Below, in pieces: positions 36,472-43,649 of a stretch of 64,000 nucleotides of DNA. The notes below the pieces were generated by a model. It was not told where the DNA came from, made no database searches, and saw nothing but the letters and a program-made list of their open reading frames with translations. Where the stretch lies: assembly GCA_026387915.1 (NCBI GenBank), contig JAPLKS010000017.1:186001-250000 (forward strand), in the 5' to 3' direction. This stretch comes from Gemmatimonadota bacterium. GTDB taxonomy: Bacteria; Gemmatimonadota; Gemmatimonadetes; Gemmatimonadales; Gemmatimonadaceae. The first letter of the stretch is position 1. Every line of letters starts with the position of its first letter. The translations under genes and the position numbers were made by a program.

Positions 36472-37692
36472 TTACTCGTAGCGCAGCGCGACGATCGGAT
36501 CGAGTCCGGCGGCCCGACGTGCGGGGTATACGCCGAACACCACGCCGACGAACGCCGAGAAACCGAACGCGATGGCAATGGAGGACGCGCCCACTTCAGT
36601 GCTCCACCCCATAATGCGGGTGAAGATCGTGGCACCGCCCGCGCCAACGCCGATACCGATCATGCCGCCCAAGAGGCAGAGCACGACGGCCTCAATCAGG
36701 AACTGGAACAGAATATTGAGCTTGGTGGCGCCGAGTGCCTTGCGAATGCCAATCTCACGCGTGCGCTCGGTGACCGAGACGAGCATGATGTTCATAATGC
36801 CGATGCCGCCCACGAGCAGCGACACGGCGGCAATCCCGGCGAGGAGCAAGCTGAACACCTGCGTGGTTTCGCCGAGCGTGTTCAAGAAGTCCGACTGGTT
36901 GCGGATCTGAAAGTCGTCATCTCGACCAGGGCGTAGTTTGTGTTCGCGCCGCAGGATCTTCTGGATGTCGGCCATCGTTTCTGGGATGTCTTCTTCCGTC
37001 GGCGCGAGCACGCTGATGGCGCGCACGCGATTCGATCCCAAGACGCGGAACCGAGCCGTGGTAATCGGAATGAGAATTTGGTCGTCGGGGTTTTGGAACG
37101 CCGAGGCCTGTCCCTTGCTCTTGAAGACGCCGACCACGGTGAACTGAATGCCGCGCACACGGATCGTTTCGCCAACGATCCCTACGGCAGACTGCACCCC
37201 GAGATTTTCGACGACGGTCGGGCCGACCACCGCCACGCGCTGGCGCGTCTGGTCTTCGGCGTTCGTGAAGAACCGTCCTTCTTGCATCTCGTACTTCCGG
37301 ACCGCTGGATAGTTGGCGGTCGTGCCGACGATCTGCGTATTCGTGTTTTTGTTGAGGTACTGCACCTGCAGACTGCCCGACATTTCCGGCTGCACCGCCG
37401 CGATGTGCGTGCCACGATCGGCGAGCGCCTGCGCGTCGTCGATGATTAAGCGGGCACCGCCGCCACCAGTCCGCACGCCACCCATCTGCGACTGCCCGGG
37501 ATTGACGGTGAGCAACGTGGTGCCAAGGGCCGCAATGCGGTCGTTGACCTGTTTTTGCGCGCCCTTACCGAGCGCCACCACCGCGATCACCGCCGCCACG
37601 CCGATCACGATGCCGAGCATCGTGAGTAGCGAGCGCAGCTTGTTCGCGCGGAGGGCGCCCAGTGCGACGCGAACGGTTTCGCCAATCAGCAT
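36472..37692 (-). CDS. MacB/LolC-type ABC transporter permease without ATPase domain
   Basis: 406 residues. The N-terminal helix and periplasmic domain (MLIGETVRVALGALRANKLRSLLTMLGIVIGVAAV) match the MacB_PCD family; three C-terminal helices form an FtsX domain (about 275-395) with SVTERTREIGIRKALGA. There is no Walker A, Walker B or ABC signature, so the nucleotide-binding subunit must be a separate protein, and none is encoded in this window. It follows the MacA-like adaptor by 3 bases, and a TolC gene is in the same operon. Mechanotransmission-type export to the outside is the expected role. Confidence 0.93.
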   Translation of the reverse strand: MLIGETVRVALGALRANKLRSLLTMLGIVIGVAAVIAVVALGKGAQKQVNDRIAALGTTLLTVNPGQSQMGGVRTGGGGARLIIDDAQALADRGTHIAAVQPEMSGSLQVQYLNKNTNTQIVGTTANYPAVRKYEMQEGRFFTNAEDQTRQRVAVVGPTVVENLGVQSAVGIVGETIRVRGIQFTVVGVFKSKGQASAFQNPDDQILIPITTARFRVLGSNRVRAISVLAPTEEDIPETMADIQKILRREHKLRPGRDDDFQIRNQSDFLNTLGETTQVFSLLLAGIAAVSLLVGGIGIMNIMLVSVTERTREIGIRKALGATKLNILFQFLIEAVVLCLLGGMIGIGVGAGGATIFTRIMGWSTEVGASSIAIAFGFSAFVGVVFGVYPARRAAGLDPIVALRYE

Positions 37693-37695
37693 TGG

Positions 37696-39606
37696 CTAGT
37701 TCCCTCGTCCGCCGCCACGACCACCACCGCCACCACCGGCCGGGCTGCCACCGAGCGGACTGCCCGTCATGGACTTCATGCGGTCATTCTGCTCCTGACG
37801 CTTGGCCTGTAGTGCCGCGGCGCTGAGCATCGCGACCTTGTCGCCTTCGGCAAGACCGTCAATCACTTCGGTGTAGTCGTAGTTGGCGACGCCAAGGCGC
37901 AGCACCTTCGGCTCCCACGTCGTGCCCTTCTGTACGAACACGAGGCCGGACCGGCTACGGCTTCTCCCGCCGCTGCCACCGCCACCGCCCATGCCACCCA
38001 TTCCACTCTGGCCATTGCCGCCGCCGCTGTTGTCGCGGCGATTCGGGAATGCCGTCGGTCGGCCGGTGCCGCCGGCCGCACCGGCAGTGGCGCCTGCGCC
38101 ACCGCGGCTGTTGTTGCCGCCACCCATCGCGCTCATCCCGCCGCGTCCGCCACCCATCTGGCCGCCACCCATCTGGCCGCCACCCATCTGGCCGCCACCC
38201 ATCTGGCCGCCACCCTGTCCGCCGCCATTCCGGAAGCGGCAGGCGCGCACGACGTTGGCATCCATACCGAGCGACTTGTACACCTCTTCGCTCTGCTTGC
38301 GCAGCGCGTCACGATCTGCGTTCGGATCACGCATCTGCTCGCGGATCGCATCGAGCTTCTTCTGCGTGTCCGGCTTCTTCGCCATCGCGTCGTCAACCTT
38401 TTTGCAGTCGGCGTCGCTCACCTGCGGCATGTTGAAGCCACCGCGCCCGCCCTGTCCGCCCATGCCACGGCGATCACCCTGATCACCCTGAAGAGGGAAG
38501 GCCAGTTCGCCGCGCGACTGCTGCGTCTTGGTGGCGGCACCCGCCGGCGCGCCGGTCGGTGCCGACGTGCTGTTGCTGTTGCCACCGCGACCGCCCTGGC
38601 CACCCTGGCCGCCACGACCACCGAATCCGCCACCCATCGCGTTGCGCAACTGCGCCTGCACGCTGTCGGGGTTCAAGCCGAGCAGCGTCGCGGCCTGGCG
38701 CGCTTCACGTGTGGAACGAATGGCGTCGTTCGGCACCGCGATGGCGCCGAGACGTTCGTCGGTAAGCACCTGCACTTCGCCGTTCATGCCGGGCTTGAGC
38801 AACCCTTCGCTGTTGTCGAGCGAAATGAGCACTGGAAACATCGTCACGTTCTGCTGTACGGTCGCCTGCGGCTCGATCTTCTCCACCACGCCGCGGAACG
38901 GGCGGTCCGGGAAGGCGTCCACGGTGACCTGCGCTGGCTGGCCGGGCTTCACGGCACCAATGTCCGTTTCGTTCACGAGTGCGCGCGAGCGCACCTTGGT
39001 GAGGTCGGCCATCGTCGCAATGACGCTGCCGCCGCTCACCGACTGTCCGCCGGCCTGAATGACCTGTCCCACCGACACCGGCTTCGTGATGATCGTGCCT
39101 TCGATGGATGCCACGACGCGCGCATCCTTGAGCTTCTGCGCGGCGAGGTCGAGGCTCGACTGACTCCGAACGAGCGTCGCCTGCGCGTTCGCAAAACCCG
39201 TTTGCGCCGACTCGAGGTCGGGGCGCGTGATGATGCGATCCTTGAACAGCGTTTCCTGACGCTTGAGCTGCGCCGAGGCGACGTCGAAGTTCGACTTCGA
39301 CGCGGCCAAGTCGGCGGTCGACTGGCGGAAGGAGGTCGTGAGGTCGGTCGTATCGATCTGCACGATGAGATCGCCAGGCTTCACGTAGCTGCCGATTTCG
39401 ATCGGCATCTTCATGACCTGGCCCGAGGCGGTCTTGGACTTCACCTCGATCACGTTGATCGGTTCGATGATGCCCGTGGCCTCAGCGGTCACGATGATGT
39501 CGCGACGCTGAATGGTGGCGGTGGGAATCGTGACGACTTTGGTATCGGTCTTGGCGCACGCCGCGGCGACGCTGACGAGGGCGAGCAGCAAAATCTTGCG
39601 GGTCAC
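37696..39606 (-). CDS. MacA-like periplasmic adaptor lipoprotein with large Gly/Met-rich insert
   Basis: About 636 residues, against 370-400 for MacA. Lipobox AAAC gives Cys17. Residues 20-310 hold the membrane-proximal, lipoyl, hairpin and beta-barrel domains (SKTASGQVMKMPIEIGSYVKPGD, LVQIDT, VTVDAFPDRPFRG). From about 330 to 560 lies an insert: a Gly/Arg/Gln-rich part, a small helical island with two Cys (DADCKK to VRACRFR), the GGGQM repeat and more Gly/Met runs; then LVFVQKGTTWEPKVLRLG resumes the conserved fold. The start is GTG 39606 with GGAG 7 bases upstream; ATG 39642 is possible. Confidence 0.9.
   Translation of the reverse strand: MTRKILLLALVSVAAACAKTDTKVVTIPTATIQRRDIIVTAEATGIIEPINVIEVKSKTASGQVMKMPIEIGSYVKPGDLIVQIDTTDLTTSFRQSTADLAASKSNFDVASAQLKRQETLFKDRIITRPDLESAQTGFANAQATLVRSQSSLDLAAQKLKDARVVASIEGTIITKPVSVGQVIQAGGQSVSGGSVIATMADLTKVRSRALVNETDIGAVKPGQPAQVTVDAFPDRPFRGVVEKIEPQATVQQNVTMFPVLISLDNSEGLLKPGMNGEVQVLTDERLGAIAVPNDAIRSTREARQAATLLGLNPDSVQAQLRNAMGGGFGGRGGQGGQGGRGGNSNSTSAPTGAPAGAATKTQQSRGELAFPLQGDQGDRRGMGGQGGRGGFNMPQVSDADCKKVDDAMAKKPDTQKKLDAIREQMRDPNADRDALRKQSEEVYKSLGMDANVVRACRFRNGGGQGGGQMGGGQMGGGQMGGGQMGGGRGGMSAMGGGNNSRGGAGATAGAAGGTGRPTAFPNRRDNSGGGNGQSGMGGMGGGGGSGGRSRSRSGLVFVQKGTTWEPKVLRLGVANYDYTEVIDGLAEGDKVAMLSAAALQAKRQEQNDRMKSMTGSPLGGSPAGGGGGGRGGGRGN
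38151..38216 (-). repeat. 15-bp coding tandem repeat in the adaptor gene
   Basis: Four exact copies of CACCCATCTGGCCGC (plus strand) and a partial fifth. On the minus strand they encode GGGQM units. Exact identity at third positions points to recent expansion. Confidence 0.95.
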
Positions 39607-39655
39607 TGCGAACTCCGGATGGAGGCGATGGGTCGGGTGCATGTTGGTCACGGCC

Positions 39656-40972
39656 TTACTTGAGGTCGCGGCCAATGAGCGCTTCGATCTGCGCCTTGGC
39701 GCTGCGCGCGTTGAGGCGCGCCGTGATGAGACTGAGGCGGGCGTTGTCGAGCTGAGACTGCACCGTCAGCACATCAAGCGCCTGCTTGGTGCCGAGGTTG
39801 TACTGCTGCTGCACGACGCGAAGGTTTTCCTCGGACGCAGAGATCTGCAGCTTGTTGAGTTCGATCGATTGCACGGCTGTCCGATAGCTGTTCAGCTGCG
39901 TGGTGAGATTCTGCACGGCGGCGAGGCGCGCGTCCCGCAGGTTCGCCAGCGCGTTTTCTTCGCTGATCTTGGCGTTGGCGAGCGTCGCTTCGCGGTTGTA
40001 GCCGTTGAAGACGTTGTACGACACCGAGAAGCCAAGCGCGGTGCTCTTGCTGCTCAGCCCGTCGCCGAAATCGAACCCCTTGGAACCTTCGGGCGTCCAG
40101 CTGTACGAGCCGGTCATGGCGATCTGCGGCATGTACGGCGCCGTGGCGGCCTTGTGCGTGGCGCCGGCGGCGGTGAGCGTCGCTTGCGACTGCCGGATGG
40201 CCGGGCCATCGGCGGCAATGCGCGTCAGTTCGTCTTCGCCCACGTTGATCACCCCGACGTCCGACGTATCGGCGATCACCGCGGTGACGAGCGTGGCGGA
40301 CCCCACGAGGCGGGTGAGCGCGGCGTTGGCGTTGCCCAGCCCGTTCTGCGCATTCAAGATGGCGAGCTTTGCCTGCCCGACGGCCACCGCCGCGGAGAGC
40401 GAGTCGGAGCGCGTTGCCGTACCGGCCATCATTTTGGTGCTGGCCACCACGAGTTGCTGCTGCGCCTGCTCCAGCTGACGGTGCGCGGCCGCGTCTTGTT
40501 CACGCGCGGCCAGCACGGCGAAGTACTGCGTTTTGACGTTCAACGCCGTCTGATAACGCTGAAGCGTTTCGTTCGCCTCGTTGGCGGAGCGATTCGACTC
40601 AGCGGCCCGCAGGTTGTAATAGCGCTGCCCGCCATCCCACACGGTGAGGCTGGAGCTGAGGCCGCGCGAATACGACCATGGGGTGCCACTGAACCCGAGC
40701 GGGACGCCGTTGATCAACTGCGTCCCGCCGCGCTGGTTGGCGGTTGCCGACAGCGCCAACGATGGCAGATACCCCAGCGTCGTCTGCTTGATAGAAACGT
40801 CGCTCGTGCGAACGCTGTTGCGCGCGAGCACGACGCTCGGCGCATTCTGCTGCGCGTCGTGCACGGCTTCGTCGAGCGAGATGGCGCGCGCGGTGCCGCC
40901 CTGCGCTACGCCCATGGACGGCGCTGCGGCAATGGCGACGCATGTTGCGACGCAAAGAAACCCAACCCTCAT
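39656..40972 (-). CDS. TolC-family outer membrane channel
   Basis: 438 residues. Signal peptide ending near GVAQGG. The rest is the duplicated TolC repeat: long Ala/Gln/Asn-rich coiled-coil helices (ETLQRYQTALNVKTQYFAVLAAREQ; REATLANAKISEENALANLRDARLA) with strand pairs between. It forms a trimeric outer-membrane duct for the MacA-like adaptor and permease encoded downstream. The gene's ATG is in an ATGA overlap with the Spy-like gene. Confidence 0.92.
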   Translation of the reverse strand: MRVGFLCVATCVAIAAAPSMGVAQGGTARAISLDEAVHDAQQNAPSVVLARNSVRTSDVSIKQTTLGYLPSLALSATANQRGGTQLINGVPLGFSGTPWSYSRGLSSSLTVWDGGQRYYNLRAAESNRSANEANETLQRYQTALNVKTQYFAVLAAREQDAAAHRQLEQAQQQLVVASTKMMAGTATRSDSLSAAVAVGQAKLAILNAQNGLGNANAALTRLVGSATLVTAVIADTSDVGVINVGEDELTRIAADGPAIRQSQATLTAAGATHKAATAPYMPQIAMTGSYSWTPEGSKGFDFGDGLSSKSTALGFSVSYNVFNGYNREATLANAKISEENALANLRDARLAAVQNLTTQLNSYRTAVQSIELNKLQISASEENLRVVQQQYNLGTKQALDVLTVQSQLDNARLSLITARLNARSAKAQIEALIGRDLK

Positions 40973-41337
40973 TTCTTCTCCTGGCGCTGCGCCTGTTGGC
41001 GCTCGCGCTGCATTTGGTCGTAGATGACCTGCTGTTCTGGCGTCAGCAGCTTCGCAATACGCTGACGCGAGTCGGCGCTCGCCGAGTCGAGCGCCGGACG
41101 GACCGGCGCGAGAATGGAATCCTGCTTGCGGTTGCGTTCGTCATAAATGCGCGCCGCCGAGTCCCGTTGGGCCGGCGTCAACTTGAGGCGATCGAACGTC
41201 CGCTGGCGCATCGCCGACTGATCCCACCAGCGCGGCATGGCGCGCACGACGAGTCGGTCCACCGAGATGCCGATGGCCGCGCCACCAAGTGCGGCGCCGA
41301 GGTACACCACCAGCGCGAGTCCTTTAGATCTGGTCAT
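40969..41337 (-). CDS. membrane-anchored Spy/CpxP-like periplasmic protein
   Basis: 122 residues. An N-terminal helix (about 7-25) anchors or exports it. The remainder is helical and carries two LTxxQ-type motifs (LKLTPAQRDS and LLTPEQQVIYDQ), the mark of the Spy/CpxP/CnrX family of periplasmic stress or metal sensors. Its place right after sigma and anti-sigma genes suggests that it senses the signal and controls the anti-sigma factor, as CnrX does in metal resistance; this is inference. ATG 41337; the frame continues upstream only over the anti-sigma gene. Confidence 0.8.
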   Translation of the reverse strand: MTRSKGLALVVYLGAALGGAAIGISVDRLVVRAMPRWWDQSAMRQRTFDRLKLTPAQRDSAARIYDERNRKQDSILAPVRPALDSASADSRQRIAKLLTPEQQVIYDQMQRERQQAQRQEKK

Positions 41338-41350
41338 GAGGCGCGGGCGC

Positions 41351-41725
41351 TCAATGGCCGGTAAGGATGCGGACGTTGGACTGCTGTTCGGACAGGCGTT
41401 CACGCGCGGCGAGTGTCGGCGCGTCGATCGTCGCCGGGTCGATGACGGTTTCGTATTCGGCGCGCGCCATCTGGGTCTGCGTGCGCAGTAAGAGCGTCCC
41501 CGCCACGATCACGGCAATGCCGGCGGCCATCAGTCCAGCGCGCAACCACGTGCCCGATACCGCCCACCACGAGTCCCCGTCTGCCAACGACAGGCGATCC
41601 ATGATGCGGCGTTCGAGAAAACTCCAATAGGCCGCATCAGCTGGCGGCGCATAGATCGCGCGCAGCTCCTGCGTCAGGGGGTCGTCGTCCCGGATGAGTT
41701 CGAGTCCGTTGAAATCGTTGTTCAT
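41351..41725 (-). CDS. putative anti-sigma factor, single-pass membrane protein
   Basis: 124 residues with one transmembrane helix at about 62-81. The cytoplasmic N-terminal part (acidic, helical, FLERRIMDRLSL) could bind the sigma factor, and a short periplasmic tail follows. The zinc anti-sigma motif (HxxxCxxC) is absent; the protein has no Cys at all. The assignment rests on position: its ATG overlaps the stop of the ECF sigma gene (ATGA at 41722-41725) and it has the size and topology of anti-sigma factors. Confidence 0.72.
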   Translation of the reverse strand: MNNDFNGLELIRDDDPLTQELRAIYAPPADAAYWSFLERRIMDRLSLADGDSWWAVSGTWLRAGLMAAGIAVIVAGTLLLRTQTQMARAEYETVIDPATIDAPTLAARERLSEQQSNVRILTGH

Positions 41726-42324
41726 AGATCACTCCTGACAGATCCCAGCACGGCGCGAAGGTGCGACCGTGCATAGTGCAGGTCCGACCGAGCCGTGCCT
41801 TCCGGAATACTGAGCATCTTGCCGATCTCGGCATGTCGGAATCCTTCCACATCGTGCAACACAATCACTGAACGCTGTCGCACCGGCAGTGTGGCCAGCG
41901 CGTCCTGCAGTCGTCGTCGCAACTCGCTTCCCTCAGCGGGATCGCGAAATGGCGAGGCCAACGTTTCCGGTAGTTCATCAGCGTCGCGTACCTTGCGACG
42001 CCGCGTAATGTCGAGTGCCGCATTCGCGACGATCCGGTGCAGCCATGCGCCGAACGCCTGATCCGGCAAGAACCGATGCAGGGCGCGGTACGCGTGCAGG
42101 AACGCTTCCTGTACGGCGTCTTCCGCATCCTCGTGATTGACGACGATGGCTCGCGCGACCGCGTACGCCCGCCGCTCGTGCGTGCGCACCAGCTGCGAGA
42201 ATGCTTCGCGCTCTCCGCGCTGCGCGGACAGCACCAGCGCCCGTTCGTCCGTGCCGCGCTCAGCCACGAACCGCGCCGTTGCCGCCGCGTGACGGCCCGC
42301 TTGGGGACTCGTCACGGCGGTCAT
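41722..42324 (-). CDS. ECF-type RNA polymerase sigma factor
   Basis: 200 residues. Region 2 at about 35-95 (LVRTHERRAYAVARAIV, HEDAEDAVQEAFLHAYRAL) and region 4 at about 140-195 (LATLPVRQRSVIVLHDVEGFRHAEIGKMLSIPEGTARS) with the helix-turn-helix, and no regions 1 or 3: a group IV sigma factor. It is first in the operon with an anti-sigma factor, a Spy-like sensor, TolC, an adaptor and a permease, so it presumably switches this exporter on under envelope or metal stress and regulates itself. Confidence 0.93.
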   Translation of the reverse strand: MTAVTSPQAGRHAAATARFVAERGTDERALVLSAQRGEREAFSQLVRTHERRAYAVARAIVVNHEDAEDAVQEAFLHAYRALHRFLPDQAFGAWLHRIVANAALDITRRRKVRDADELPETLASPFRDPAEGSELRRRLQDALATLPVRQRSVIVLHDVEGFRHAEIGKMLSIPEGTARSDLHYARSHLRAVLGSVRSDL

Positions 42325-42350: not shown

Positions 42351-42382
42351 AATTACGCGGTCTCTGTACGGAGCGTTGGACA
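42351..42382 (-). promoter_or_regulatory. candidate ECF-type autoregulated promoter
   Basis: On the minus strand TGTCCAACG, 16 bases, CGTAATT, with the -10-like element 27 bases before ATG 42324. An AAC-containing -35 and a CGTA -10 are the usual form of ECF promoters. I have not found a second copy that would prove the motif. Confidence 0.35.
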
Positions 42383-42401: not shown

Positions 42402-43001
42402 TCACTTGGTGCCGCCGTCCAACCCGAGCTGCTGGGCGCAGGCGCGCATGGCGGTAATCACGAACGCGATGTGCGCGTCCAGTTCCTGTCCAAGCTCGGA
42501 CGCACCCTGTATCACGTCCTCTCGGCTGACCCCCCGGGCGAACGCCTTGTCCTTCATCTTCTTCTTGACACTCGAGGACTCCAAGTCGTTCACGCTCCGC
42601 GAGGGCCGGACCAGCGCGCAGGCCGTAATCAGGCCACACAGCTCGTCCACCGCGAACAACGTCTTGGCCATCGGAGTGACGCGTGGGACCCCGGTGTAGT
42701 CCGCGTGGCCGAGGATGGCCTCGAGCATATCCTCGGGGTACCCTAGGCGCCGGAGCTCGCGGACCCCTTCGGCCGGATGCTCTGCGTTGCTTTCACGTGT
42801 CGCGTTCGGGTAGCGCTCGTAGTCGAAATCATGCAGGAGACCGGCCAGCCCCCAGCGCTCGACGTCCTCCCCGAAATGGCCGGCATAGGCCCGCATCGCG
42901 GCCTCGACCGACAACATGTGCTTACGCAACGAATCACTGGGCGTCCACGACTCCATCAGAGCGAGTGCGTCGGCGCGGGAATGCAGAGAATGGTCGGTCA
43001 T
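42402..43001 (-). CDS. HD-domain hydrolase-like protein
   Basis: About 199 residues. The HD motif lies in LAGLLHDFDYERYPN (His-Asp), with upstream MLSVEAAMRAYAGHFGED (His ligand region) and AILGHADYTG as a later His. These are the metal ligands of the HD superfamily of phosphohydrolases. It has no partner domain and the substrate is not known; relatives are annotated as HDIG or hydrolase proteins. The start is ATG 43001, rather than 43010. A hairpin terminator precedes it, so it has its own transcript. Confidence 0.82.
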   Translation of the reverse strand: MTDHSLHSRADALALMESWTPSDSLRKHMLSVEAAMRAYAGHFGEDVERWGLAGLLHDFDYERYPNATRESNAEHPAEGVRELRRLGYPEDMLEAILGHADYTGVPRVTPMAKTLFAVDELCGLITACALVRPSRSVNDLESSSVKKKMKDKAFARGVSREDVIQGASELGQELDAHIAFVITAMRACAQQLGLDGGTK

Positions 43002-43015
43002 AGGACTCAAAATAG

Positions 43016-43049: not shown

Positions 43050-43649
43050 TCAGAGCGCGCCGCCCGGTGGCGGTCCGCCCTTCGGCATGATCTTCGCCAG
43101 ATCCTCGTCCTGATCCTTGAGGAAGTCGAGCGCCTTCTTCTTCTGTCCTTCGTCCTTGAACAACGCGAGCGTGTCGTCCACGTCCTGCTTCCGGCGATCC
43201 GCGATCTGCGTGATGATGTAGTGCATCACCCGCATCTGCTGCATCGCCTTTTCCATCTCGCGATCTGTGGGGCCGCCAATCTGCGGTTCCGAGCCCGGTG
43301 CCACCCGCGCAATGTTGCCGGTCGGCGCATGAAAGTCGCGCCGGATCGAATCGTACTCGGTGAGCAACGTTTTGTTGCGCTCCTTGATCTTTTCCTCGAG
43401 CGCCTTGAACTGCGTCACCTGCGAGTCGGAGAGCGACAGTTTGCGGCGTTTGTCGCCCATAAGCCAGGCCGGATTCAGCTCCTCGATTTCGCGCGTACTC
43501 GGCGCACGCATCATGGGGCCGCTTTTACTTTCACGGCGCGAACCGGTCGTGGCCTCGCTGCGCGTACTGGGGCGTTGCGCAAATGTCGCCGAGGGCAGTA
43601 ATGCCCCGACGAGCACCAGTGGGAGAATGCGAATCAAACGATGAGTCAT
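43050..43649 (-). CDS. exported Spy-like helical protein
   Basis: 199 residues. Signal peptide ending ATFAQ. A basic Ser/Arg/Thr-rich stretch (25-50) precedes a helical domain with LSLSDSQVTQFKALEEKIKERNKTLL, which resembles the LTxxQ core of Spy/CpxP proteins, and a Pro/Gly-rich end. Likely a periplasmic chaperone or stress sensor. It is transcribed alone: a terminator follows and a 90-base gap precedes it. The second such protein in this window lies in the sigma operon. Confidence 0.72.
   Translation of the reverse strand: MTHRLIRILPLVLVGALLPSATFAQRPSTRSEATTGSRRESKSGPMMRAPSTREIEELNPAWLMGDKRRKLSLSDSQVTQFKALEEKIKERNKTLLTEYDSIRRDFHAPTGNIARVAPGSEPQIGGPTDREMEKAMQQMRVMHYIITQIADRRKQDVDDTLALFKDEGQKKKALDFLKDQDEDLAKIMPKGGPPPGGAL

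Follow-up and report, generated by a model that had tools for sequence, protein, structure and literature searches.

MacAB-TolC exporters belong to the type VII ABC exporters, and in MacB the permease is connected to the ATPase by two coupling helices, a major one and a minor C-terminal one (PMC5985334). Another way of energising a transporter is represented by the multitask ATPases MsmX and MsmK, where a single ATPase from another locus powers several transporters that have none of their own. These serve CUT1 sugar importers, and according to a 2020 paper exchangeability had been reported only there (PMC7658222). In the open-access literature, no report of a shared ATPase for MacB-type exporters was found, such sharing being known for sugar importers, and a search for orphan MacB permeases, the MacB of Gemmatimonadota and shared exporter ATPases gave nothing direct.

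Organization of the operon

In the window, the stretch of 64,000 nucleotides that was analysed, six genes overlap or abut on the minus strand between 42324 and 36472 (Table 1). The original prediction described a row of a sigma factor, a one-helix protein, an LTXXQ protein, TolC, a MacA-like lipoprotein and a permease, and this row is confirmed by all six reading frames and, for most members, by Pfam matches above the cut-offs (Sigma70_r2, Sigma70_r4_2, OEP, HlyD_D23/HlyD_3, MacB_PCD and FtsX). As in MacAB-TolC, the adaptor and TolC are both encoded within the operon. The LTXXQ gene probably starts at ATG 41337 rather than GTG 41403, and macA probably at GTG 39606 or ATG 39642 rather than TTG 39675. 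Just upstream of the operon, past an HD-domain gene (42402-43010), a second LTXXQ-like protein is encoded (43050-43649); both genes are retained next to the operon in several relatives.

Table 1. Features of the operon and their positions in the window
Feature	Position	Strand	Basis
ECF sigma factor, 200 aa	41722..42324	-	Pfam Sigma70_r2 and Sigma70_r4_2
Anti-sigma candidate, 124 aa, one TM helix	41351..41725	-	Position, conserved N-terminal segment, predicted TM
Membrane-anchored LTXXQ (Spy/CpxP-like) protein, 122 aa, candidate sensor	40969..41337	-	TM and profile match
TolC-family outer membrane channel, 438 aa	39656..40972	-	Pfam OEP, 187 bits
MacA-like periplasmic adaptor lipoprotein, 636 aa	37696..39606	-	HlyD_D23, HlyD_3, RND_mfp
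MacB_PCD/FtsX permease without ATPase domain, 406 aa	36472..37692	-	MacB_PCD 172 bits, FtsX 71 bits
ECF-type promoter candidate, CCAACG-N16-CGTA	42354..42379	-	Aligned in operon copies
Adaptor insert, four-helix mini-domain, two conserved Cys	38218..38424	-	Alignment and AF2
Permease major coupling helix region, residues 306-326, SVTERTREIGIRKALGATKLN	36715..36777	-	Conservation

The claim that no ATPase is present in the permease or beside it was borne out. Re-reading of the permease gave no Walker A or LSGG motif, nor were these found in the four neighbouring genes scanned, and there is no ABC ATPase among the operon-neighbouring genes listed or scanned.

Loss of the ATPase gene

In the sister families (f2 and f3), an ATPase gene lies between tolC and macA in 10/10 loci (L072-L078, L080, L081, L083). 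Their order is sigma, anti-sigma, LTXXQ, TolC, ATPase, MacA and permease, with parts of the sigma module undetected in some loci. In the window's own family (f1), the ATPase is missing from the operon in all 39 loci that could be inspected from TolC to the permease. An ATPase gene missed or mis-assembled in or beside the operon might be suspected, the genome being split in 23 contigs, and an ATPase beyond a mis-assembled junction had been named as one observation that would overturn the original prediction. This is extremely unlikely and the operon is not an assembly artefact, because 38 further loci of the family show TolC, MacA and permease in the same ATPase-less order. One of them belongs to a genome in one contig, 99% complete, in which the sole close ATPase lies at a distance of 0.9 Mb (G126).

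The ATPase-less state is unusual among MacB-like permeases: across bacterial genomes, an ATPase lies within 5 kb in 66 of 80 loci, leaving 14 without. Two Poribacteria loci (L149, L215), where MacA and a MacB-like permease likewise lack an ATPase within 5 kb, may represent an independent case.

In the permease tree, the ATPase-less forms (window type, solitary and RND-operon type) cluster beside the ATPase-bearing set with a support of 92/85. This topology fits one loss of the ATPase followed by a spread of ATPase-less permeases. The basal members (L070, L236, L238-L240) consist of TolC, MacA and permease, with neither an ATPase nor a detected sigma module. After the loss, further permease copies are found either solitary or inside RND operons. 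The solitary copy of the window's genome (G000:C22:332845; L040 10822-12042) is 56% identical to the window permease, and no adaptor, TolC or ATPase was found near it. The RND operons with an embedded permease belong to three genomes (G009, G014 and G011, respectively) and have the order sigma, anti-sigma, LTXXQ-like, ATPase-less permease, TolC, MFP and RND (L044 388-8739, L046, L079).

Conservation of the permease and its coupling helix

The permease aligns over its full length with the membrane half of the MacB structures 5gko and 5lil, beginning after their ATPase domain. As in MacB, the MacB_PCD and FtsX domains, both scoring above cut-off, are combined in one chain; four hydrophobic segments are present and the major and minor coupling regions align with those of MacB. 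Its dN/dS amounts to 0.02-0.13 between related genomes, and to 0.024 for the solitary copy compared with its counterpart in G007. Judged by these ratios, the permease is not decaying and is under strong constraint. The family-wide absence of the ATPase gene from the operon could suggest a relic, which lost its function along with the ATPase. Such a fate is very improbable, being contradicted by the low dN/dS, by open frames in almost all copies, by the family-wide retention and by further duplication.

Conservation is high in the part that would meet an ATPase. The mean pairwise identity of the major coupling helix, TERTREIG(I/V)RKALGAT, is 0.90 in the ATPase-less clade versus 0.55 in the periplasmic domain, and equals that of the ATPase-bearing relatives (0.896), although packing, and not docking alone, may keep such a helix conserved. 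The permease thus appears to be still built for an ATPase.

An ATP-free permease was also considered, which would serve the sigma/anti-sigma/LTXXQ module in signalling or as a scaffold, in the manner of FtsX/BceB-type permeases. The three RND operons are suggestive in this respect, as the permease gene there follows an LTXXQ-like gene and is followed by a complete TolC-MFP-RND set, which should work without it, and the solitary permeases are maintained under strong selection. BceB does signal, but it does so together with an active BceA ATPase (PMC5985334). However, an ATP-free role does not predict that the helix facing the nucleotide-binding domain is conserved as in ATPase-bearing relatives, and four basal members (L236, L238-L240) keep TolC, MacA and permease without a detected sigma module. 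We consider this role unlikely. Its more specific form, a sensing or force-bearing subunit of the ECF sigma module that works without ATP hydrolysis and was recruited into RND-pump operons of the same genus, would be slightly less likely still. An ATP-free role, if true, would be more surprising than energisation in trans.

A candidate partner ATPase

The ATPases of the genome were surveyed with Pfam ABC_tran. Those of the MacB/LolD type are FtsE-like (C12), LolD-like (C9) and YbbA-like (C2) proteins, one encoded at C17:290034 and one in a cluster on contig C4. This C4 cluster (G000:C4:41428-50041) comprises TolC, MacA, the ATPase and six permeases. The latter are of two alternating types, suggesting three heterodimers on one motor (L041 5426-14078).

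The C4 ATPase and the ATPase lost from the operon form one well-supported group in the tree. Lost-type and cluster-type ATPases are about 70% identical overall (0.68 in one comparison). In the docking segment, from the Q-loop onward, which in ABC transporters generally should be the part facing the coupling helix, their identity rises to 0.94, versus 0.71 to the next ATPase group. Over their whole length, the permeases of the C4 cluster share only about 36-39% identity with the window permease, yet two of them carry TERTREIGVRKALGAT, the window's coupling helix except for the I/V position. Elsewhere, MacB and group E have RMA(V/I)GAR, and FtsX differs more.

One full-length match of at least 68% to the lost ATPase is found in 115 of 128 family genomes and two matches in 0/128. 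A relocated copy of the lost ATPase was rejected on this count, as a second match of at least 68% is absent from every family genome sampled; this reading is also countered by the grouping of the remaining ATPase with those of the sister-family clusters. Among genomes with the window-type permease, 77/82 have the cluster-type ATPase and the other five are 79-89% complete, but this ATPase is nearly universal in the family and its co-occurrence with the permease alone says little. The cluster ATPase is missing from G006, G012 and G017, whose permease clusters run into a contig edge. In the five genomes with permease and cluster-type ATPase on one contig, the two are 0.7-1.95 Mb apart.

The other ATPases of the genome were weighed as drivers of the permease. 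LolD-, FtsE- and YbbA-type proteins are available, and the C17 ATPase adjoins an adaptor gene and has no permease of its own. However, a C17-type ATPase of >70% identity is missing in six genomes that are all 97-100% complete and all have the operon (G001, G003, G004, G014, G015, G016), and this patchy presence led to its rejection. The LolD-, FtsE- and YbbA-types are set aside solely by their own permeases, whose coupling regions are unlike that of the window. A drive by any of these ATPases is, in our judgement, improbable.

The C17 region (G000:C17:288836-290732; L002 4837-6733) encodes an HlyD-like adaptor and a MacB-type ATPase with no adjacent permease, the mirror image of the finding in the window. 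In several related genomes, a permease-like gene or a second ATPase adjoins the C17-type ATPase.

A further operon was found on a MAG contig labelled Candidatus Eisenbacteria (L142), with the order ATPase, TolC, MacA and permease. Its permease falls inside the ATPase-less set, which then has a support of 88/82, and its ATPase groups with the cluster ATPases of the window's family (96/86), although the AU test did not reject a placement with the operon type (p 0.365). The L142 ATPase is probably of the cluster type. A window-type permease thus seems able to work with an ATPase of the cluster kind, in another phylum where both appear reunited in one operon.

Sigma module and adaptor

The ECF sigma factor has SigE, SigW and CnrH among its PDB matches. 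The one-helix protein gave no Pfam or family match in domain searches. Its conserved N-terminal segment, RDDxLTxxLRxIYAxPxDxAYW, is followed by one predicted TM helix (about 60-83), and on the basis of position, segment and helix it is inferred to be the anti-sigma factor. The LTXXQ protein has an N-terminal TM at 6-27 and scores below the Pfam LTXXQ cut-off (18.9 versus 24.3 bits). A profile of 14 orthologues matches the Spy and CpxP structures with E-values of about 1e-3 to 1e-2. The AF2 model is all-helical, and the Foldseek search ranks Spy first at a non-significant E of 0.63; the structural match to CnrX/NccX was not significant either.

Upstream of the sigma gene, candidate -35 (YCAACG) and -10 (CGT) elements are aligned in all 18 family operon copies examined, and a similar motif precedes the sigma gene in 6/10 sister-family operons. 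In the window, the CCAACG-N16-CGTA-type site is the sole one of its kind. The motif alone is unspecific genome-wide, with nine sites versus six for a reversed control pattern, and was dropped as a guide to the rest of the regulon. We read the conserved promoter-like motif before the sigma gene as autoregulation, and it argues against a transcript that starts only after this gene, which the original prediction had left possible. The sigma/anti-sigma/LTXXQ control turned out not to be specific to the ATPase-less form: most ATPase-bearing sister-family operons have such control too.

The lipobox Cys17 of the adaptor is invariant in 18 orthologues. The membrane-proximal region contains an insert of ~65 aa between Gly-rich stretches, which consists of four helices with two Cys and has no Pfam match. 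The AF2 model of the insert has a pLDDT of about 83-90, and the flanking Gly-rich linkers are of low confidence. The Cys pair is present in adaptors of the ECF-type operons of the window's family and absent from sister-family adaptors and from L070. As L070 is ATPase-less and yet has no Cys pair, the ATPase-less state does not require the insert.

Proposed mechanism

Energisation of the permease in trans by the shared C4-cluster ATPase is the best explanation of these data, with a probability of roughly 70%. The original prediction had offered a shared ATPase encoded elsewhere or a different energy source. The former is favoured because a single specific candidate exists, which is conserved throughout the family and whose docking surface matches. 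The latter is unsupported, as few regions of the permease are conserved as well as the coupling helices, which would serve no purpose if no ATPase were bound.

The exporter would be an ECF-sigma-controlled tripartite system of the MacA-MacB-TolC type that lost its own ATPase gene in the ancestor of the family. An envelope signal might reach the LTXXQ protein and the one-helix anti-sigma and free the sigma factor, which would transcribe the entire operon from its own promoter. The permease presumably still forms a MacB-type dimer, driven in trans by physical pairing with the one close paralogue of the lost ATPase that is left, that of the C4 cluster. Besides the permeases encoded alongside it, this ATPase would serve the window operon and probably the solitary C22 permease. 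The points resting on sequence are the gene content, the loss of the ATPase gene, the conservation of the coupling surface, the one close paralogue per genome and the promoter-like motif.

If this reading is true, the motor of a MacB-type tripartite exporter would be common to several other permeases, a concrete partner ATPase would be named for the permease, and ATPase-less MacB-like permeases (14/80 sampled loci) need not be broken or ATP-independent. The family represents a natural experiment with one ATPase loss, plus the apparent reunion in another phylum.

Comparison with known systems

A close relative is the ATPase-bearing operon of the sister families, which has mostly the same order of sigma, anti-sigma, LTXXQ, TolC, MacA and permease. 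It differs by a LolD/MacB-type ATPase between tolC and macA and by an adaptor without the two-Cys insert.

ADOP permeases are usually not encoded beside an ATPase. The window permease resembles them (TIGR03434) in its MacB_PCD/FtsX architecture, but ADOP is a duplicated permease of ~800 aa, whereas the one in the window is unduplicated and reaches 125.3 bits versus a cut-off of 622.3. An ADOP-type duplicated permease is present in the same genome (L134 4040-6706; G000:C17:282039-284705; TIGR03434, 856 bits).

The regulatory arrangement may work like CnrYXH/NccX in Cupriavidus metal sensing, a likeness of layout. An ECF sigma, a short one-helix anti-sigma, in the window a candidate, and a membrane-anchored helical periplasmic protein precede a tripartite exporter in both. 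However, the gene order differs, the exporter is of the ABC type and not RND, and the fold match to CnrX/NccX is not significant.

With MacAB-TolC (PMC5985334), the operon shares TolC, a MacA-type adaptor, a 4-TM MacB_PCD permease and the major and minor coupling helices. It differs in having no fused or adjacent ATPase, which apparently comes from a distant locus, and in its ECF sigma control. As one ATPase stands for six cluster permeases plus the ATPase-less loci, we infer that the C4 protein may be a multitask ATPase, extending to an exporter the sharing of a motor that until now was described for sugar importers (PMC7658222). As far as the sequences tell, the parts are ordinary; their arrangement is unusual and family-wide.
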